Source: Chloroflexota bacterium (GTDB taxonomy: Bacteria > Chloroflexota > Anaerolineae > Anaerolineales > UBA11579). From it: a stretch of 39,715 bases of DNA. Both the position numbers and the translations under genes were made by a program. The stretch spans positions 1-39,715 of the forward strand of contig QWJF01000013.1 of the NCBI GenBank assembly GCA_009391835.1, written 5' to 3'. The first letter of the stretch is position 1. Every line of letters begins with the position of its first letter. The notes below the pieces were generated by a model. It was given only the letters and a program-made list of their open reading frames with translations, had not been told where the DNA came from and made no database searches. Of the stretch, positions 13,607 through 38,171 are shown in pieces.

Positions 13607-15034
13607 TTAATAAGTTGCGGGCAATTTTGTGCCCATGAAGGTCAATGTAAGGCGGCTCACGCAGTAGCGAGGAAATTCTATGCTGCCGCAAACTTCCAGC
13701 AATGAATGCACCACAAGTTGGTTAACCGCTCGGCGAAGGGGGGGCTCTTCAAGGCCGGAAAACTTTCGAAGCCGATCGTAGGAGATTTCGTTAGCCGCCT
13801 CGTTTGGCAGCCGAGCAAGGAGTTGCTGCGATTCGGGCGAAAGCAGACGCCAAACCGGTTGATAGATATTTCGATACAAGGTTTCTATCTTAGGATCCGA
13901 ACCTTCAGCAAACGCCTCCGAGACTATGCGCAAGGGCAAAATCCTCAGCATCTCAGCCACCAATTTGAGGGCACGGGGATTTCCGCCAGTGAGCGCAACT
14001 ATTTCCAGAACCTGAGAATCTAAGAGCGCGATTTCCTCGTGGGCAACTCCTCCGAATATGTGGTGCTGAAGAAACTCGGCGGCTTCGGCATTGTTCAATT
14101 CGGGGAGGGGGAAATGCAAAAGGTTGGAAGAATTGTCGAAGCGTGCACGCCCGATGAGTAAGAATTTGCTCGGGTTGGCCCAGCGATGAACGTAACGCAG
14201 CAGAACGTCGGATTGCCTTGAATTGAGCCCATCAATTACTATAAGACGCGGCTCTATTTTCAATGACTCAGCGAGTGAGCGGGACATCTTGTCCGCGGCT
14301 GCATTTTCCGTGTAATGATTTTGAAAGAGCATGTCTGCAATCTGGTTTGATAGCGTGCCGGTAAACGCACGCGTTTTTGCTCCCATTTCTTCCTCCATGT
14401 TTACCCATTCAAAGGCGGAGAAACCACGGGATTCTGCCAACTGCTGCACCGCAAGCTGGGCAAGCGCCGTCTTACCAATGCCGCCCAATCCCGTCAACGC
14501 AATAATATAAGGTGGTTCACGGCGCCTCAAGCAAGCAATTAATTGCTCAAGGAGCGAATCCCTAGCAAGCCATTGAAAATCTGGCGAGAGAGACAAGTTG
14601 ATTCTCACCTGCCATGCAAGTTGATTGCGCGCGGAAAATTCCCGCACCTCAATGATCTGAGCCAACAATTCAATGGCCTCGCGTTGACGGCGGTTGATCT
14701 GATCCTGGCTCAAGTTGAGACGGTGGGCCAGAAAGAGAATCGTTTGTCCCTCAATAAAGCGGGCACTCAACAGAGAAGCCAGCCGCGGCCGGCTTTTTTC
14801 GAGTTCGGCGATGCAATTTTCAAGAAATTGGTTGAATTTACGTCGCTTTTCAAGCGGATCCAGCCACGGGGAGATCAGACTCGACTGGCGGAAGATTAAG
14901 AAATAGTCTAACGCTTCAATGCTTTTTAATGACAGACTGCTCCAAGTGCGTAATAAGGTGTGTAAGGATTTGCGCAATTGTTTTGAATCAGATTCAGATA
15001 AAGCCTTCACACCCACCTCGGTTGCAACGGACAC
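13607..15034 (-). CDS. STAND-type (NB-ARC) NTPase without C-terminal repeats
   Basis: A 475-residue protein. Residues 15-130 are helical and include a helix-turn-helix-like stretch around 92-125 (I-L-F-L-A-H-R-L-N-L-S-Q-D-Q-I-N-R-R-Q) resembling sigma region 4 or LuxR-type DNA-binding helices. A P-loop NTPase follows: Walker A G-L-G-G-I-G-K-T (182-189), Walker B R-L-I-V-I-D-G-L (263-270), the L-L-I-G-R-A-R strand (292-298) and the G-G-N-P-R-A-L motif of STAND proteins. A winged-helix segment ends the protein. STAND proteins are signal-sensing switches, usually with TPR or WD40 sensors at the C-terminus, absent here. The start is probably GTG 15034, with GTG 15014 or 15008 as alternatives; none has a clear SD. 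It is divergent from tatA. Function unknown. Confidence 0.75.
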   Translation of the reverse strand: MSVATEVGVKALSESDSKQLRKSLHTLLRTWSSLSLKSIEALDYFLIFRQSSLISPWLDPLEKRRKFNQFLENCIAELEKSRPRLASLLSARFIEGQTILFLAHRLNLSQDQINRRQREAIELLAQIIEVREFSARNQLAWQVRINLSLSPDFQWLARDSLLEQLIACLRRREPPYIIALTGLGGIGKTALAQLAVQQLAESRGFSAFEWVNMEEEMGAKTRAFTGTLSNQIADMLFQNHYTENAAADKMSRSLAESLKIEPRLIVIDGLNSRQSDVLLRYVHRWANPSKFLLIGRARFDNSSNLLHFPLPELNNAEAAEFLQHHIFGGVAHEEIALLDSQVLEIVALTGGNPRALKLVAEMLRILPLRIVSEAFAEGSDPKIETLYRNIYQPVWRLLSPESQQLLARLPNEAANEISYDRLRKFSGLEEPPLRRAVNQLVVHSLLEVCGSIEFPRYCVSRLTLTFMGTKLPATY

Positions 15035-18206: not shown

Positions 18207-19925
18207 ATGACTAAGAAACTATATAGCTTGATCGCACTCCTGGCTGTAGCCAGCCTGGTACTTGCTGCTTGTGCCCCTGCCGCCGGCGACGCCGGTTCTG
18301 CGGGCGATGCCGGTGACGCAGGAACCTCTGGCGACGCGGGAAGCGCGGGCGACGCAGCCTTTGAAGGCACGAGCGTTGCTTCTGAGAGCTGCGACTATGG
18401 CGGAAAAATTCTGTCGATTGAGGCAGTTGACGCTCTGACCGTAGTCTTCAACCTGTGCAAGCCAGACCCGGCCTTCCTGGCCAAGATCGCTTTCACGCCT
18501 TTTGGCATCCAGCCTTCTGAGTGGATTGCTGAAACCGGCGGAGCTGGCGAACTGCTTGAGCACCCCATCGGCACCGGCCCTTACATGGTGCAAGAGTGGG
18601 ATCGCGGCAACCAGATAGTTTTCACTCGCTTCGATGATTACTGGGGCGAGGCTGGGGCCGCTGCGACTGTAACGCTGCGTTGGCTGACCGAAGGCGCGGC
18701 TCGCTTGCAGGAATTGCAGGCCGGCACAGCCGACTTCATCACCAACCTAGCGCCGGATGACTATGCTACTGTGATCGGGTCTGACGACTTGGTCTTCATC
18801 CCGCAGGACAACCCAAACGTGTTGTACCTGGCGATGACGAACACCTTTGCGCCATTCGACAATCAACTGGTTCGCCAGGCGATTGCCATGGGCATTGACC
18901 GGCAGCGGATCGTTGACAACTTCTACCCTGAAGGGTCTGAAGTAGCCGATTACTTTACGCCGTGCTCAATCCCGAACGGTTGTGAGGGAGATTCCTGGTA
19001 CGAGTTTGATCCGGAAGCGGCCCGCGCTCTGCTGGCTGAAGCCGGTTACCCGGATGGCTTTGAAACCTCCATTTACTATCGTGACGTTTTCCGCGCTTAC
19101 CTACCCGAGCCGCCTTTGGTGGCCCAGGAATTACAGGCACAGTTGGCGGCTAACCTTGGCATCACTGCCGCGGTCGTTCCGATGGAATCTGGTGAGTTCA
19201 TCGCCGCTTCCACCGATGGTCAGTTGGATGGTTTCTACCTGCTTGGTTGGGGCGCCGACTACCCACACGTAACCAACTTCCTGGACTTCCACTTTGGCTC
19301 CGGCAACCCGCAGTTTGGTGACCCGTTTGCTGAAATCTACGGTCCTTTGGAAGAGGCCTCCTCGATCGCCGATCTGGCCACAGCTGCCCCGTTGTATGCT
19401 GAAGCCAACAACGCGATCCGAGACCTGGTTCCGATGGTGCCGATCGCTCACGGTGGTGTGGCCCACGCGGCCCTCGCAACGCTGGATGGCGCTTACTATC
19501 CGCCTTTTGGTGCGAACGAGTTCTATCGCATGAGCCCGACCACCGACGATCCGGACTACGTGGACATGGTCTACGTCCAGAACGCCGAGCCCATCAGCCT
19601 TTACTGTGCTGATGAGACCGACGGCGAATCCCTGCGCCCGTGCCAGCAGGTTGTTGAAACCTTGCTGGACTACGCAACGGATTCTGGAGATACGGTGCCT
19701 GAACTGGCGACCTCCTGCACAAGCAATGAGGATTCGACAGTTTGGACATGCAGCCTGCGCTCAGGCGTGCTCTTCCATGACGGCTCGGCGTTTGACGCCA
19801 ACGACGTGGTAGCCTCCTTCGCAGCGGGCCTGGATGCTTCCAGCCCGTATCACGTGGGCAACACCGGTGGCTTCGACTACTTCTCCTACCTCTGGGACGG
19901 TTTGATGAACGTCCCGGCGGAGTAA
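18207..19925 (+). CDS. Peptide-type ABC substrate-binding lipoprotein, apparently circularly permuted
   Basis: A 572-residue family-5 (DppA/OppA-type) binding lipoprotein with lipobox L-V-L-A-A-C (Cys 22), a Gly/Asp/Ala-rich linker (residues 27-50) and AGAAGGAG before ATG 18207. Its parts are out of order. Right after the linker comes G-G-K-I-L-S-I-E-A-V-D (65-75), then H-P-I-G-T-G-P-Y (119-126), normally the middle of the first lobe. The segment that normally opens the mature protein (residues 455-572, with E-P-I-S-L, V-P-E-L-A and L-R-S-G-V-L-F-H-D-G-S at 517-527) is at the C-terminus, after the usual end region P-M-V-P-I-A-H-G. All pieces seem present, so it may fold as a circular permutant. 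Six Cys in or near the moved pieces could form disulfides. It feeds the permeases encoded downstream. Confidence 0.88.
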   Translation: MTKKLYSLIALLAVASLVLAACAPAAGDAGSAGDAGDAGTSGDAGSAGDAAFEGTSVASESCDYGGKILSIEAVDALTVVFNLCKPDPAFLAKIAFTPFGIQPSEWIAETGGAGELLEHPIGTGPYMVQEWDRGNQIVFTRFDDYWGEAGAAATVTLRWLTEGAARLQELQAGTADFITNLAPDDYATVIGSDDLVFIPQDNPNVLYLAMTNTFAPFDNQLVRQAIAMGIDRQRIVDNFYPEGSEVADYFTPCSIPNGCEGDSWYEFDPEAARALLAEAGYPDGFETSIYYRDVFRAYLPEPPLVAQELQAQLAANLGITAAVVPMESGEFIAASTDGQLDGFYLLGWGADYPHVTNFLDFHFGSGNPQFGDPFAEIYGPLEEASSIADLATAAPLYAEANNAIRDLVPMVPIAHGGVAHAALATLDGAYYPPFGANEFYRMSPTTDDPDYVDMVYVQNAEPISLYCADETDGESLRPCQQVVETLLDYATDSGDTVPELATSCTSNEDSTVWTCSLRSGVLFHDGSAFDANDVVASFAAGLDASSPYHVGNTGGFDYFSYLWDGLMNVPAE

Positions 19926-19979
19926 GCAAGTTCACTCCACTCGTGTTGTAAGGCTCTAAACCAGAGCTAAAAAACAAGC

Positions 19980-20025
19980 ACGCGGGGTGGGCTAAGTCGC
20001 TGAAAAGCGCTTTCCCACCCCGCGT
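19980..20025 (+). promoter_or_regulatory. Intercistronic stem-loop between SBP and dppB
   Basis: ACGCGGGGTGGG (19980-19991) pairs with CCCACCCCGCGT (20014-20025). The loop contains a small second stem (CGCT-GAAA-AGCG). TTGCCTTTTC follows. It may be a partial terminator or an mRNA stabiliser, similar in position to the stem-loop at 16312. Confidence 0.75.
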
Positions 20026-20049
20026 TGCCTTTTCTACAAGGAAGTTGGC

Positions 20050-21132
20050 ATGTCCCAATATGTTTTTCGGCGCATTCTGCTGGCCGTGCCGGTAATCATC
20101 GGGATCCTGGTGGTTACCTTCACAATTGCGCGCTTGATTCCGGGCGATCCGTGTACAGCTGCTTTGGGGGAGCGAGCCACCGTTCAGGCCTGTGAAGCCT
20201 TTAACGAGCGGATGGGGCTGGATCAACCGCTCACTGTGCAACTGGGCATCTACATGCGCAACGTATTGCTGCGCGGTGATTTTGGGGATTCAATCCGCTT
20301 TAGCCGACCGGTCTCCATTATGCTTATCGAGCGTCTTCCGGTGACGATTGAATTGGGTGTGGCAGCGTTGGCTATTGCAATCGCAATTGGCGTGCCAGCC
20401 GGCATCATTTCAGCTGTGCGTAGAAACTCTACAATAGATGTTGTGACCATGATTGGGGCCAATATCGGGGTCTCTATGCCGGTTTACTGGCTGGGGCTGA
20501 TGCTGGCCTACGTATTTGCAATCCTGCTTAAGGACACTCCCTTTTGGCTGCCTCCCTCGGGCAGGCTCACAGCCGGCTTGCTGCCCACCCCGTTTTACGA
20601 GGCCTGGGGTTGGCAACTTACCAAGGACACAACGGCTTACCTGATTTCAGATTTCATCTCAAACCTTGCAATTATTAATTCCATACTTACGTTCCAGTGG
20701 AACGTTCTGCAAGACGCTCTCAGGCACCTTATCCTGCCAGCGGTGGCGCTGAGCACAATCCCGATGGCGATCATTGCGCGGATCACGCGCTCCAGCATGC
20801 TGGACGTTTTGGGGCGCGAATATGTGCGGGCAGCGCGCGCCAAAGGCGTGAGCGAACGTCAAGTTGTGCTCAAACACGCGCTGCGCAATGCGATGCTGCC
20901 GATCATTACGGTGATAGGTCTACAGGTCGGGACGCTGTTTGCGGGTGCGGTGCTCACGGAGACTATTTTTGGATTCTCCGGGGTAGGCCGGGCGCTCTTC
21001 GATGCTATTACTGGACGCGATTTCCCTGTCATCCAGGCGTTTACGGTGGTGATCGCAATCGGCTATGTACTCGTGAATATGCTGGTAGATTTGTCTTACG
21101 CGTTTATCGACCCGCGTATCAAACTGCAATAG
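20050..21132 (+). CDS. Peptide-type ABC transporter permease (DppB family)
   Basis: A 360-residue membrane protein. It begins with the family's M-S-Q-Y-V-F-R-R-I-L and first helix, followed by I-P-G-D-P-C, a periplasmic region and then the permease core. The cytoplasmic coupling loop is E-Y-V-R-A-A-R-A-K-G-V-S-E-R-Q-V-V-L-K-H-A-L-R-N-A, and the C-terminus reads V-D-L-S-Y-A-F-I-D-P-R-I, as in DppB/OppB. It forms half of the membrane channel, with the DppC-like protein as partner. ATG 20050 follows AAGGAAG. About 60 residues between helices (around 155-215) are longer than in the shortest family members. Second gene of the five-gene operon. Confidence 0.94.
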   Translation: MSQYVFRRILLAVPVIIGILVVTFTIARLIPGDPCTAALGERATVQACEAFNERMGLDQPLTVQLGIYMRNVLLRGDFGDSIRFSRPVSIMLIERLPVTIELGVAALAIAIAIGVPAGIISAVRRNSTIDVVTMIGANIGVSMPVYWLGLMLAYVFAILLKDTPFWLPPSGRLTAGLLPTPFYEAWGWQLTKDTTAYLISDFISNLAIINSILTFQWNVLQDALRHLILPAVALSTIPMAIIARITRSSMLDVLGREYVRAARAKGVSERQVVLKHALRNAMLPIITVIGLQVGTLFAGAVLTETIFGFSGVGRALFDAITGRDFPVIQAFTVVIAIGYVLVNMLVDLSYAFIDPRIKLQ

Positions 21133-21138
21133 GATCCT

Positions 21139-22089
21139 ATGGCAACTCGCACCGAAGCAATAAGCCCCGAAACAATCAATCCCAGCCAACGTTCACGAAG
21201 CCTGGGGAGCCTGACTATCCGGCGATTGTTCAAGCAGCGGAATGCAATCGTTGGATTGACTATCCTGACAATCCTGTTGCTGATTGCCGTTTTTTCGCCG
21301 CAGATTGCTCCCTATGATCCGGAATTGGTATTAATCGGAATTGAAGATGTGGGAAAGAGAGAGTCACCTTGTATCCATCTCTTGGGCTGCCCCGAAGACC
21401 AGCCGCAACATATAATGGGGATTGATGGCAATTTTCGGGACCAATTCAGCCGGGTAATTTATGGCACACGTGTGTCGCTTTTTATTGGCTTTTCGACAAT
21501 TGGGCTTGCCGTAATCATTGGTTCGTTGATCGGAGCAGTTTCGGGCTATTTGGGCGGCTGGGCAGATAACGTGATTATGCGCTTTATGGACGTGATTCTG
21601 GCATTTCCAAGTTTCCTGTTGGCGATCGCGATTATCACGGTGCTAGGGAGGGGGTTGCAAAACGCGCTTTATGCCATTGCCGTGGTCAATATCCCAGTGT
21701 TCGCGCGGTTAATGCGAGCCAGCGTGCTTTCATTGAAAGAGCAAGAATTTGTGGCCGCCTCGCGGGCGCTGGGGGCAAGTCCATTTCGGTTGCTGTTTGC
21801 GCGCATCCTGCCGAATGCGGCGCCCACTTTGATTGTGCAGGCCACTTTGAGCATTGCCTCTGCTATTCTGGAAGCCGCCGCTCTTTCGTTCTTGGGGCTG
21901 GGCGCGCAACCCCCCACCCCCGAATGGGGAACCATGCTTGGCTCTGAGCGCAATCAGGTATTTACTTCTCCACATCTAGTTTTCTTTCCGGGGATTGCCA
22001 TTATGATCACGGTGTTGGCCTTCAACTTATTAGGCGATGGTATCCGTGATGCCCTTGATCCCCGGCTGGCACAGACAACCAAAAGTTAG
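21139..22089 (+). CDS. Peptide-type ABC transporter permease (DppC family)
   Basis: A 316-residue membrane protein with the DppC/OppC layout: cytoplasmic N-terminus, a first helix around residues 40-55 ending in P-Q-I-A-P-Y-D-P, a periplasmic segment, then the core with five helices. The coupling loop E-F-V-A-A-S-R-A-L-G-A-S-P-F-R-L-L-F-A-R-I-L-P-N-A is clear, followed by A-A-L-S-F-L-G-L-G-A-Q-P-P-T-P-E-W-G and the closing L-G-D-G-I-R-D-A-L-D-P-R. The start is ATG 21139 with AGGA just upstream, 6 bases after the dppB-like stop. It pairs with the DppB-like protein. Confidence 0.95.
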   Translation: MATRTEAISPETINPSQRSRSLGSLTIRRLFKQRNAIVGLTILTILLLIAVFSPQIAPYDPELVLIGIEDVGKRESPCIHLLGCPEDQPQHIMGIDGNFRDQFSRVIYGTRVSLFIGFSTIGLAVIIGSLIGAVSGYLGGWADNVIMRFMDVILAFPSFLLAIAIITVLGRGLQNALYAIAVVNIPVFARLMRASVLSLKEQEFVAASRALGASPFRLLFARILPNAAPTLIVQATLSIASAILEAAALSFLGLGAQPPTPEWGTMLGSERNQVFTSPHLVFFPGIAIMITVLAFNLLGDGIRDALDPRLAQTTKS

Positions 22090-22093
22090 CTCT

Positions 22094-23131
22094 ATGACCC
22101 AAACCACTGCAGCAAACACCACTAGCCAACTTCTTGATGTAATTGGCCTTAAGACTTATTTCTTTACGGATGATGGCGTTCTTACAGCCGTGGATGGAGT
22201 GGATTTCAGCGTGGCGCGCGGCGAGGTTTTTGGGCTGGTTGGTGAATCCGGCTGCGGAAAAAGCGTGACGTCCCTATCTGTTATGCGCCTGGTGGATGCA
22301 CCTGGCAAAATCGTTGAGGGCGAGATCAAATTAGAAGGGGAGAACCTGCTCACCAAAACTGCGAAAGAAATGACAAGCATTCGCGGCCAACAGATTTCGA
22401 TGGTGTTCCAGCAGCCCAAAAGCAGCCTCAACCCCGTGTTTACCATCGGCGACCAGATCATGGAAGTCTTTGAAATACACGAGGACATTGACGAAGCAGA
22501 GGCATGGGAGCGAACTATTGAACTGCTGCATACGGTGGGGATTCCTGAACCCGAAAGCAAAGCAAACGCCTATCCCCACGAACTTTCCGGTGGGCAGGCC
22601 CAACGGGTGATGATTGCGATGGCCCTGGCGTTGAAACCCAAACTCCTTATTGCGGATGAACCAACCACTGCTTTGGACGTGACTATCCAGGCCCAAATCC
22701 TGGATTTAATTCGAGAATTGAGCGCACAAACGGGCACTGCGGTGATTCTAATCACGCACGATCTGGGTGTGGTCGCAGAAATGGCGGACCGGGTGGCAGT
22801 GATGTATGCCGGCCAGATCGTGGAAGAAGCCGACACAATCAGCCTGTTCCAAAAACCCCTGCATCCTTATACGCAGGGATTGCATGCGTCTGTGCCCGTC
22901 TTAGGGCAGACCAAGGAACGACTGGAAACTATTCCGGGAAACGTTCCCAATCTAATCGGACAAATTAATCATTGCCGCTTCGCACCGCGCTGCAAAGCCA
23001 GGGTTGATTACGAACTTGATATTTGCAATCATCAAGAACCGGACCTGATTGACGCAGGCGAAGGCCGTAAAGTGCGCTGCTGGCTTTATCAATCAAGTGG
23101 CGAACACAAAGCACCTCTCAAGATAAATTAA
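22094..23131 (+). CDS. Peptide-type ABC transporter ATP-binding protein (DppD family)
   Basis: A 345-residue ATPase: Walker A G-E-S-G-C-G-K-S, Q-loop V-F-Q-Q-P-K-S-S-L-N-P, signature L-S-G-G-Q-A-Q-R-V, Walker B L-L-I-A-D-E-P-T-T-A-L-D and switch His in L-I-T-H-D-L-G. The C-terminal oligopeptide-transporter domain carries C-R-F-A-P-R-C and two further Cys; in the Dpp/Opp ATPases such Cys sets can bind an iron-sulfur cluster. I chose ATG 22094, four bases after the dppC-like stop; a longer frame from 22037 overlaps that gene and has no homology. No strong SD is seen, so coupling to the previous gene is likely. Confidence 0.95.
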   Translation: MTQTTAANTTSQLLDVIGLKTYFFTDDGVLTAVDGVDFSVARGEVFGLVGESGCGKSVTSLSVMRLVDAPGKIVEGEIKLEGENLLTKTAKEMTSIRGQQISMVFQQPKSSLNPVFTIGDQIMEVFEIHEDIDEAEAWERTIELLHTVGIPEPESKANAYPHELSGGQAQRVMIAMALALKPKLLIADEPTTALDVTIQAQILDLIRELSAQTGTAVILITHDLGVVAEMADRVAVMYAGQIVEEADTISLFQKPLHPYTQGLHASVPVLGQTKERLETIPGNVPNLIGQINHCRFAPRCKARVDYELDICNHQEPDLIDAGEGRKVRCWLYQSSGEHKAPLKIN

Positions 23132-23146
23132 GGTAAGCAAGAAATT

Positions 23147-24160
23147 ATGGCGGCTACAGAAAAGAGATCATCCGGCAAAGGGAACGAGGACCTGGTTGAA
23201 GTAAGAAATTTGGTCAAGTATTTCCCTGTGACGGAGGGGGTGCTGAAGAGAAAAGTGGGAAATATTAGAGCCGTGGACGACGTTAGCTTCGCAATTAAGC
23301 GAGGGGAAACACTGGGGCTGGTGGGCGAATCGGGCTGCGGCAAAACCACTGTGAGCCAAACCATGCTGAGGCTAACCGAACCAACCTCCGGAGAGGTGCT
23401 GTTTCAGGGCGAGAACATCTTTGACAAAAACGGCCGCGATCTCATGGAGATGCGTCGCAAGGTCCAGATTGTTTTCCAGGATCCCTACGCCTCACTGGAT
23501 CCGCGACTTACCATCGGTGCGGCGATCGAAGAGGGCTTGATCATTCATAAAATGGGGAATTCCGAAGAGCGGGTGGAAACAGTGTTGGATATGCTCAAGC
23601 TGGTTGGCCTCGAAGAGTATCATGCCGGCCGTTTCCCGCATGAATTTTCAGGCGGGCAGCGCCAACGGATCGGGATCGCTCGAGCCCTGGTCCTTTCTCC
23701 GGAGTTCATTATTCTGGACGAACCTGTTTCAGCGCTGGATGTTTCCATCCAAGCCCAGGTGCTCAATATTCTCAAGGAACTCCAGGAACGCCTCAAGCTT
23801 ACTTACATGTTCGTGGCTCACAACCTCGCCGTGGTAGAACACATTTCGGATCGAGTCGCAGTGATGTATTTGGGGCGATTAGTAGAAGTGACCACCCAGG
23901 AAGAATTGTTCGGCAGACCGCTGCACCCCTACACCCAAGCATTACTATCAGCGATCCCAGTGCCCGATCCCACTAGGAAAAGAGAGCGCACCATTCTTGC
24001 AGGAGACGTGCCCAGCCCGCTCAATCCACCTTCGGGCTGCCGTTTCCATCCGCGCTGCCCGATTGCGAGGCTCGGCCATTGCTCTATTGAGGACCCGCAG
24101 CTACGCGAATTGCGTCCGGGGCATTGGGTCGCCTGTCATTACGCTGAAGATTTTCTCTAG
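23147..24160 (+). CDS. Peptide-type ABC transporter ATP-binding protein (DppF family)
   Basis: A 337-residue ATPase, partner of the DppD-like subunit. It shows the OppF/DppF N-terminal mark [11 protein letters not shown], Walker [10 protein letters not shown]-loop [12 protein letters not shown], signature [15 protein letters not shown], Walker [13 protein letters not shown] and switch His in F-V-A-H-N-L-A. The tail has G-C-R-F-H-P-R-C-P and a later Cys, again the possible cluster-binding set. Last gene of the operon; it follows the previous stop by 15 bases. The nearby region contains the promoter of the next gene and no obvious terminator. Confidence 0.95.
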
Positions 24161-24205: not shown

Positions 24206-24234
24206 TTGCCACGGGCAATTTAGCTTTTTATAAT
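24206..24234 (+). promoter_or_regulatory. Sigma70-type promoter of the broken BtrH-like gene
   Basis: TTGCCA (24206-24211), 17 bases, perfect TATAAT (24229-24234). A TGGAGGTGG ribosome-binding site directly precedes ATG 24261, so the expression signals are intact although the gene is broken. Confidence 0.7.
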
Positions 24235-24260
24235 GGGGGAAAAGAAAATTTGGAGGTGGC

Positions 24261-25479
24261 ATGACTGTTTTAGCTGACTACGCACAATTCGAGGGACGAC
24301 ATCGGGAAACCGGGAGCGTGCAAAATCCTGGCATATCGCGGTGTTTTGGCTCCACATAGCGGCAAGCCATTTAGCGAGGCCATGCTGCTAGGCATAAGTG
24401 GCGGCATCGCCTTCGGCTATTTTCTCTTTCACTATGTGGGGTTTGACCCTCAGTTAGCCCTGTTGACACGCAACACATTCGATCCTCTGCAGACGTTACT
24501 GGAGCGCCTCGGCGTAGTTCAAACCGTGATGCAAACAGCCAGCGAAGAAAAAGCTCATCGGAATCTGATGGATGTGCTTGAAAATGAGGAGCCCGCTTTG
24601 GTTTGGGCGGATAGTTTCCAGCTTCCATATAACGGCCGATCAGAAACCAGTGATTCCTATTGGGATATGCAGCCATTGGTGGTTTACGGACATGATGGCC
24701 ATGAAGCCTACATCGCGGATCGTTCCAGCCAGGGACTGAGGGTAGATGCGGACACGTTCTTGCGGGCACGCGGCCGGATCAAGAAAGACAAATTCCGTGT
24801 CATCACTTTGGATCTCCCCAGCACGGATAAACTCAGTGGGGCCGTAAGTAACGGGATCTGGTAGTGCATCCGGCTTTTTACCGAGACGCCGCCAAAAGGC
24901 GCAAAAAAGAATTTTGGATTCGATGGGCTGCAACATTGGGCAAATATGCTAATAAACACGCGCAATCCACAAAGTTGGGGACGTTATTTTCCGCGCGGCG
25001 CAAGTTTGTTCTCAGCCCTACTTGGCAACAGCCACAGCCCAGGATTGTTTGGATGGGTGAACACGTACGGCAGCGGCGCAAATGCCGAGCGGGATTTGTA
25101 CGCAGATTTCCTTGAGGAGGCGGCGATGGTGCTCAAAAAGCCGGATTTGAACGAAGCGGCGAAACTTTTCAGGATTAGCGGGAGGGAGTGGGCAACTTTG
25201 GTCGACCTTGCGCTGCCGAATAGGGTGGAGCTGTTGATGAGAGGGCGTGAGTTGCTCGCCCTACGCTGCACCTTGTTCATCGACAAGGGCAGTGCGGCCC
25301 TGGATGAGGTTCTCCAAATTGATAGGGATTTTGAAGACCTACGCACGAAAGCCACGAAAGCTTTTCCACTCGACGATGCCGGTGTTGCCGCCTTGCTGGG
25401 CCAAATGAGCGAACAAGTTCTCCGGATTCACAATGCTGAATCGCAGGCTATCGAAGCATTACAAGAGGCCATGAGCTAA
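24261..25479 (+). pseudogene. BtrH_N/DUF4872-type protein, broken by a frameshift and an amber codon
   Basis: ATG 24261 opens M-T-V-L-A-D-Y-A-Q-F-E-G-R-H, the usual start of this family, but the frame ends at TAG 24357. From 24328 a different frame continues with the expected L-A-Y-R-G-V-L-A-P-H-S-G-K; loss of two bases (or gain of one) near 24325-24328 explains this. The new frame runs on through G-I-S-G-G-I-A-F-G-Y-F to G-I-W, meets an in-frame TAG at 24862-24864, and resumes in the same frame with C-I-R-L-F-T-E-T-P-P-K-G, then a helical DUF4872-type region to 25479. BtrH-like N-terminal domains have a papain-like acyltransferase fold, known from butirosin biosynthesis. Two separate lesions with intact promoter and RBS suggest recent inactivation; sequencing error is the alternative. 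Confidence 0.85.
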
Positions 25480-25541
25480 GAGAATTTCGGTTCGTGCAAT
25501 CCAAGAAGAATTCAACACTGAGGCGATCTTCTCTTTTTGGG

Positions 25542-25547
25542 TAAAAT
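25542..25547 (+). promoter_or_regulatory. -10 box giving a probably leaderless mvaD-like transcript
   Basis: TAAAAT ends 6 bases before ATG 25554, where transcription would begin at or next to the A of ATG. No SD is present. The -35 is weak (TGAGGC at 25519). Confidence 0.5.
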
Positions 25548-25553
25548 GCCCGC

Positions 25554-26534
25554 ATGCCCAAACAATCAGCCGCCGCGATGGCCCATCCAAACATTGCATT
25601 CATCAAATATTGGGGCAACCGGGATCGCGAGTTACGCATTCCGGCAAATAGTTCGCTTTCGATGAACCTGGAAGGGCTGGAAACCAAAACGCTTGTCCGC
25701 TTTGACAGCGAACTGGCGCAGGACGAATTCATTCTGAATGAAGAACCCGCTTCCCACGAGGCAGCCGGGCGCGTAACTGCGTTCCTTGACGTTGTTCGGG
25801 GCATGGCGAACCTGCCCGAGCGAGCCAGTGTTGCGAGCAAAAACAATTTCCCAAGCGGCGCTGGCGTGGCTTCCTCCGCGTCGGCCTTCGCAGCCTTGGC
25901 TCTTGCGGCCAGTCGGGCAGCGGGGCTAGTGCTTGATACAAATGCGCTCTCGCGGCTCGCGCGCCGTGGTTCGGGCTCGGCGAGTCGATCGGTACCGGAT
26001 GGATTTGTGGAATGGCACGCAGGGGAGAACGACGCTGATTCTTACGCCGAGAGCGTTGCCCCTGCCGACCATTGGGCACTACGAGATTGCATCGTCGTTG
26101 TCAGCGAAGCGCACAAGGCAATCGGATCAAGCGAAGGCCACGACCTGGCAGATAGCAGCCCCTTCCAGGAAGCGCGCATTGCAGGCGCACAAGAACGCCT
26201 GGAGAATTGCCGGCGAGCCATTGTGGAACGCGATTTCGCCACCCTGGCTGATGTGGTGGAACTGGACAGCCTAATGATGCACTCGGTGATGATGAGTTCT
26301 ATGCCGGCGCTTTTCTATTGGGAACCTGCTACGCTGGGCGTACTAAAGGCTGTGCGGGCCTGGCGCGCTGATGGCCTCGAAGCCTGTGCAACGGTTGATG
26401 CGGGGCCAAACGTGCATGTGATTTGCCCGGAAGCTCAGGCAAGCGAAATTGTTGAGCAACTCACACGCTTGCCCGGCGTGCTGCGTGTGCTCGAATCTTC
26501 CGTGGGTGGAGGCGCCAAATGGCTCGAGCTGTAA
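25554..26534 (+). CDS. Mevalonate-pathway decarboxylase (diphospho- or phosphomevalonate decarboxylase)
   Basis: A 326-residue GHMP-kinase-fold enzyme of isoprenoid precursor synthesis. Motifs: A-H-P-N-I-A-F-I-K-Y-W-G-N-R-D, P-A-N-S-S-L-S-M-N-L, the ATP loop P-S-G-A-G-V-A-S-S-A-S-A-F-A, G-S-G-S-A-S-R-S with its conserved Arg, G-F-V-E-W, and D-A-G-P-N with the catalytic Asp. Classical diphosphomevalonate decarboxylase has Lys in K-Y-W-G-K; here it is Asn. That Lys lies in the substrate phosphate region, and Chloroflexota such as Roseiflexus are known to use a phosphomevalonate decarboxylase with isopentenyl phosphate kinase. The monophosphate is therefore a plausible substrate (inferred). No other mevalonate gene is in the window. 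The transcript is probably leaderless. Confidence 0.88.
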   Translation: MPKQSAAAMAHPNIAFIKYWGNRDRELRIPANSSLSMNLEGLETKTLVRFDSELAQDEFILNEEPASHEAAGRVTAFLDVVRGMANLPERASVASKNNFPSGAGVASSASAFAALALAASRAAGLVLDTNALSRLARRGSGSASRSVPDGFVEWHAGENDADSYAESVAPADHWALRDCIVVVSEAHKAIGSSEGHDLADSSPFQEARIAGAQERLENCRRAIVERDFATLADVVELDSLMMHSVMMSSMPALFYWEPATLGVLKAVRAWRADGLEACATVDAGPNVHVICPEAQASEIVEQLTRLPGVLRVLESSVGGGAKWLEL

Positions 26535-37697: not shown

Positions 37698-38171
37698 ATG
37701 GCAACCAAATCAAAATTCTCGTTATTGCAATACAAAAATAGATTAGCGGACCAGATTGCCGACATCGATCACAGAACGCTGGCACTATGGGCGATGGATT
37801 GCGCCCAGCGCGCAATGCCCTATTTCGAAGAAAACCGCCCAGAAGACCGACGGCCCCGCAAAGCGCTCAGCGCACTGGAAGCCTGGATTAAGACAGGAGC
37901 ATTCGAGATGGCGGTGATCCGCGCAGCCTCGCTTAGCGCGCACGCCGCGGCCCGCGATGTCGGCGAAGAGAGCCCGGCGCGTTCCGCCGCACGCGCCGCT
38001 GGCCAGGCTGTGGCAACCGCCCACGTCCCTATGCATGCGATCAGCGGGGCAATCTACGCTCTGCAGGCCGTTCATCGCGCCACCACGCCGCAAGACGCCG
38101 ACGATGCTGTTGAGGCGGAATACAGTTGGCAACTAGAGCGCCTGAGAAGGCTTGCCCGTGCCGCTCACTAA
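37698..38171 (+). CDS. Imm5-like putative immunity-family protein
   Basis: A 157-residue, all-helical, Ala-rich cytoplasmic protein. Its pattern L-A-L-W-A-M-D-C-A-Q-R-A-M-P-Y-F-E-E-N-R-P-x-D-x-R-P-R-K-A-L, then A-W-I-K-T-G, then A-A-R-A-A-G-Q-A-V-A-T-A-H-V-P-x-H-A matches a widespread Imm5-like family annotated as putative immunity proteins, found mostly without any toxin next to them. No toxin gene is nearby here, so an immunity role is unproven. ATG 37698 directly follows the uvrB stop with no separate SD, implying coupled translation. It overlaps the ybaK start by 14 bases. Confidence 0.7.
   Translation: MATKSKFSLLQYKNRLADQIADIDHRTLALWAMDCAQRAMPYFEENRPEDRRPRKALSALEAWIKTGAFEMAVIRAASLSAHAAARDVGEESPARSAARAAGQAVATAHVPMHAISGAIYALQAVHRATTPQDADDAVEAEYSWQLERLRRLARAAH

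Follow-up and report, generated by a model that had tools for sequence, protein, structure and literature searches.

The best described counterpart of the gene considered here is BtrH, the butirosin acyltransferase, in which the Pfam domains PF14399 (BtrH_N) and PF16169 (DUF4872) follow one another in this order. BtrH_N proteins have been placed close to the C39 and C70 families (PMC10318531), and CcbD is described as depending on a carrier protein and on a triad of Cys, His and Glu (PMC12945683); for CtaG, the titles of structure entries name C11, H128 and D144 variants. On the forward strand of the window, by which we mean the whole stretch of 39,715 nucleotides analysed, positions 24261-25479 hold one gene of about 405 codons for a protein with the same two domains in the same order; unlike that of BtrH, its reading frame is broken, and at two sites. 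The only NCBIfam match is to DarH (NF053550), with 50.5 bits for the intact homolog of the same-family genome G304 and 38.7 bits for the middle piece of the window copy, both far under the curated cut-off of 300. We argue below that the region is very probably a recently inactivated unitary pseudogene for an Anaerolineae BtrH_N plus DUF4872 protein.

Frame 1, read from the ATG at 24261, yields MTVLADYAQFEGRHRETGSVQN before the homologous frame is left. The N-terminal piece proper (24261-24326) comprises 22 homologous residues, with identities of 86% to the copy in G151, 68% to that in G304 and 73% to that in G450. At the first break a single base (24327) stands where relatives have one codon of three bases, a net loss of two; homology picks up again one frame on, with LAYRGV at 24328, while the unshifted frame runs for 32 codons and ends at a TAG (24357-24359). 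The middle piece (24328-24861) matches Pfam BtrH_N (9.3e-21, 74.9 bits) above its gathering cut-off of 29.7, and the C-terminal piece (24865-25479, including the TAA stop) matches DUF4872 (1.2e-7, 32.1 bits) above its cut-off of 28; the 32-residue N piece matched no Pfam family on its own. Between these two pieces lies the second lesion, an in-frame TAG (24862-24864) aligned to exactly one sense codon in relatives. Among intact relatives, the three closest to the window (G304, G450 and G355) all have CAG there, and the others CAG, CAA, GAT, GAC, GAA, AAG or GCC. Apart from the two lesions the frame is open up to the TAA at 25477-25479. In all these respects the alignment bears out the first-pass annotation, which had placed a loss of two bases near 24325-24328 and an in-frame TAG between stretches of homologous sequence, had seen no further stops and had guessed that the TAG arose from CAG.

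The same annotation had described the expression signals as intact. A Shine-Dalgarno-like TGGAGGTGG is indeed present on the forward strand at 24251-24259, one base before the start codon. The promoter hexamers, TTGCCA-17-TATAAT at 24206-24234 on the same strand, are likewise there and agree with the consensus at 11 of 12 positions, but this was the single site found in a scan of the 1.5-kb region, against a mean of 1.1 promoter-like sites in shuffles, so that to call the promoter intact in function goes too far; judged on sequence, it is a candidate promoter of a kind expected by chance. In G304 and G450, where the gene is intact, a -10-like TACAAT precedes it at a similar place. Translation of the window copy would begin at the intact signals, run out of the BtrH frame where the two bases are missing and stop after 32 codons, and thus no BtrH_N/DUF4872 protein would be made; the TAG at 24862-24864 by itself would also take away the C-terminal domain.

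Homologs were matched in 41 of 298 genomes of the class and in 63 of 400 genomes of the order, each count including the window's own genome. This genome alone represents its genus, so that there is no close sister by which to date the decay from synonymous change; the nearest comparison genomes belong to the same family. The closest are G304, G450 and G355, with 70, 68 and 66% identity in the middle piece, G304 also showing 53% in the C piece; G363 and G397, of the same family, hold more distant copies. A search for related loci based on the C piece only gave 94 pattern matches and no confirmed relative, and one based on an alignment of nine intact homologs confirmed 107, the best 80 of which were kept. 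The full-protein search covered 68 genomes, namely the window's own and those with better matches. In 60 of them the match is nearly full-length and in a single open frame, in three (G416, G288 and G340) it runs off contig ends, and in five the copy is lesioned: beside the window, G409 has a TAA at codon 38 counted from its start, G153 a TAG at codon 241, G481 a copy spread over two frames and G019 an internal deletion. The G153 copy (L085, 8478-9671) has its single in-frame TAG where most relatives have W, and adjoins genes for a papain-family protease and an ornithine cyclodeaminase. Comparison with close relatives, proposed as a check at the outset, thus matches the three pieces to one protein of about 405 residues, and the window gene combines the two marks of a pseudogene, disabling lesions and intact homologs elsewhere, its frame as a BtrH_N/DUF4872 gene being interrupted at 24327 and 24862. 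No second BtrH-like copy was found in the 83%-complete assembly of the window's genome.

How far has the decay proceeded? Against 31 relatives, the window copy deviates in one of 34 invariant and two of 89 near-invariant columns, where each of the 31 (which include two lesioned copies, G409 and G153), left out in turn, shows between 0 and 21 deviations in 89 to 95 near-invariant columns, with a median of 4. For this count seven of 38 rows were dropped: the window's own locus, G416 (contig ends), G626 (contig start) and the duplicates L077, L080, L081 and L083. With the Poisson upper limit for two events, the share of these codons altered since constraint ended would be no more than about 7%. 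The end branch of the window copy in the BtrH protein tree measures 0.44, those of its two sisters about 0.33 each, and the window's end branch in a tree of three intact downstream genes measures 0.49. Compared with the sisters, the window copy shows roughly the expected identity in its middle piece and somewhat reduced values in the C piece (45.3% to G355 and 47.5% to G447, where G304 scores 50.2 and 52.0%). Near-complete conservation of residues, branch lengths and identities taken together indicate that the decay has hardly begun; with the neighbouring genes intact and this the sole copy found, the recent pseudogenisation claimed by the first-pass annotation is well supported.

The same conservation can be turned against a pseudogene, because almost all conserved residues are kept, as they would be in a working gene. 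The alternative that survives best, though we consider it unlikely, is an error of assembly or sequencing, with one or both lesions absent from the organism. In its favour, broken frames are known from this family's genomes, the mvaD gene of G304 being an example. On the other hand, the window gene carries lesions of two different kinds, an indel and a substitution, and its flanking genes align with those of relatives in single frames. A stretch of 424,715 bases from its own genome showed a coding fraction of 0.876, a median ORF of 273 residues and one suspicious ORF pair, in a test whose power is limited, as it missed the window's own frame break.

A very improbable alternative is recoding, in which the TAG would be read through by amber suppression and a ribosomal +1 shift would mend the first break, so that the full protein would still be made. 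Besides the conserved residues, it can draw on one more in-frame TAG elsewhere in the genome (G000:C3:1148-1150, L162), a faint hint of amber read-through. It requires two independent recoding events, and at 24318-24330 no known +1-shift signal was seen by eye. The genome encodes RF1 (486 bits, cut-off 423); none of 36 tRNAs has the anticodon CTA, as read by ARAGORN from the tRNA matches in the 83%-complete assembly, which bears on the earlier question of an amber suppressor; and TAG terminates 157 of 535 ORFs of at least 200 residues (in 46% of the assembly). On these three observations we reject genome-wide recoding of TAG; they agree with the low rank that recoding had been given from the start, while the proposed look for in-frame TAG codons in other genes came out on both sides, the case at C3:1148 speaking for recoding and the regular use of TAG as a stop against it.

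The second TAG splits its gene into 139 and 153 residues, neither half of which matched a Pfam family above cut-off; single frames cover both halves in G403 (297 residues) and G397 (290 residues). The gene comes after a sigma-70-like gene (by Pfam) and from this place only may be called anti-sigma-like. When in-frame stops were sought by codon score, antisense frames overwhelmed the result. Under stricter criteria, a scan covering 782,953 bases, of limited sensitivity in that it missed the window's own TAG, yielded 57 same-frame pairs (24 at TAA, 23 at TAG and 10 at TGA), ten of which have no start codon in the first eight codons past the stop (six TAA, two TGA and two TAG). Most of the 57 read by eye as ordinary gene borders, and the case at C3:1148 is confirmed by relatives. 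For the two genes with an in-frame TAG, two pseudogenes are the easier explanation.

The least probable alternative is a split gene, in which an internal start would still give a middle (BtrH_N) or C (DUF4872) piece that functions by itself. Mechanical ORFs do begin at 24346 (TTG) and 24946 (ATG), but the middle one would only start beyond HxET, a conserved motif, the model of the intact homolog aligns over its whole length with AziU3, CcbD and CtaG, and no relative of the 68-genome set, with its 60 single open frames, carries the pieces as separate conserved genes, the arrangement that the first-pass annotation had itself set against its reading. We therefore return to the recent unitary pseudogene, which we regard as ordinary gene decay at a locus where BtrH is missing from several relatives.

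Upstream of the pseudogene lies an intact opp-type operon for an oligopeptide ABC transporter (18207-24160, forward strand; a substrate-binding protein, two permeases and two ATPases), syntenic in nine relatives; downstream, after a gap of 74 bp (25480-25553), follows an intact gene for diphosphomevalonate decarboxylase, mvaD (25554-26534, forward strand), which also closes this row of genes in G304, G450 and G430. In G304 and G450 the place of the gap is taken by a gene for gamma-glutamyltranspeptidase (GGT, named by Pfam at 3e-154), whereas no GGT gene was found at the window locus or elsewhere in the 83%-complete assembly. Among the 21 relatives mapped at mvaD, the order oppABCDF-BtrH-GGT-mvaD-M50 peptidase-HEAT-MA2 peptidase is found in these same two. 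In G430, where a contig ends, the C end of BtrH is seen together with GGT and mvaD; six relatives (G384, G338, G348, G370, G377 and G327) have opp and GGT without BtrH; G316 has opp and mvaD with neither BtrH nor GGT between them; and in 11 of the 21 opp, BtrH and GGT are all missing beside mvaD within the stretch fetched, so that the module is confined to part of the family. The mvaD gene itself is one long match in 21 of 23 other family genomes, with a fragment in G437 and none in G416; that of G304 (L087, 12279-13228, on the reversed locus) lies in two frames, possibly through a sequencing indel. Elsewhere in the window, an Imm5-like immunity protein gene directly follows uvrB (37698-38171), and an NB-ARC ATPase is encoded on the reverse strand (13607-15034), one stretch of which weakly resembles sigma-70 region 4, at a score under the cut-off.

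The loci of G384 (L281) and G304 (L087) share about 93% DNA identity on both sides of a clean absence versus presence of BtrH between oppF and GGT. Because G450 and the window hold BtrH at the same place, the gene was probably lost, and cleanly, in G384. The window copy, G304 and G450 form one group in the BtrH tree (100/99), the pattern that inheritance within the family would produce. Mapped on the three-neighbour tree, presence of BtrH at the mvaD locus takes four changes, against a mean of 3.8 with shuffled labels, and is thus no more clustered than under shuffling, which leaves room for gains as well as losses. GGT, for its part, was either lost in the lineage of the window or gained by its relatives, as the tree leaves the order of the window and G430 undecided. 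The loss of BtrH would have been tolerated because the gene, with or without the adjoining GGT, would be dispensable in this family. Other copies adjoin genes for an aminotransferase, an enolase-superfamily enzyme, a papain-family protease and an ornithine cyclodeaminase, and also for GGDEF, SIS and cupin proteins, and no neighbour is therefore general.

What the intact proteins look like can be judged from an AlphaFold2 model of the G304 homolog (pLDDT 94.3, pTM 0.92). This model is predicted to share its fold, over the full length, with AziU3/Azi29 (Z 21.1, rmsd 5.4, 295 residues aligned), CcbD (Z 20.7, rmsd 4.5, 304 aligned) and CtaG (Z 19.9, rmsd 3.9, 286 aligned), Z values within about 1 of each other being ties; AziU3/Azi29 is also matched by sequence profile, at an E value of about 0.01. 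C39-, phytochelatin synthase- and papain-like enzymes match the model over residues 1-190 or so. Both Pfam domains of BtrH are found in all 38 intact clade members scanned (38 of loci L179-L258), which we compared with eight distant BtrH-type proteins of the same class (L273-L280).

Unlike BtrH, the clade has neither the papain-type Cys nor the His. At the Cys position (HCxTG; residue 15 of the G304 protein) none of the 38 has Cys (W in 28, Y in seven, P in two, R in one) whereas all eight distant proteins do, and the window copy has R. At the His position (start of the following strand; residue 138 of the G304 protein) His is again found in none of the 38 and in all eight; the clade has F, M, I, Q, L, T, A or Y there, and the window Q. 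In four of the 38 a His occurs two columns earlier, and for these, as far as an alignment can tell, a shifted His may be envisaged. The acidic third residue, Asp 154, is kept as D in 35 of the 38, in all eight distant proteins and in the window, and the spacing of 16 between the His and Asp positions equals that from H128 to D144 in CtaG. The clade thus also differs from CcbD, whose triad includes Cys and His. One genome, G204, holds both a copy with the Cys-His pair and a Cys-less clade copy. Since Cys and His are missing, the intact clade proteins are probably not ordinary cysteine acyltransferases, and any function of theirs is suggested by neighbours only, here peptide import and GGT. We would put forward, as a proposal evenly balanced between being right and wrong, that a large Anaerolineae clade kept the BtrH/CcbD/AziU3 fold, lost the Cys-His pair and fixed H14, E16, T17, W135 and P139; that its members carry out a different reaction, one that uses no cysteine, or else bind a ligand and catalyse nothing; and that, between the oligopeptide importer and gamma-glutamyltranspeptidase, they act on imported or gamma-glutamyl peptides, in a place where they are dispensable and were repeatedly lost.

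Taken together, we argue that 24261-25479 is better marked as a pseudogene than as two or three small genes, and that it would be wrong to ascribe a BtrH-type function to the lineage of the window. The locus shows decay at an early stage, in a gene wholly absent from close relatives. More interesting than an ordinary pseudogene, and deserving of follow-up, is the Cys-less clade to which its intact homologs belong: a conserved BtrH-fold clade without the Cys-His pair is a warning against reading 'acyltransferase' from a Pfam name.
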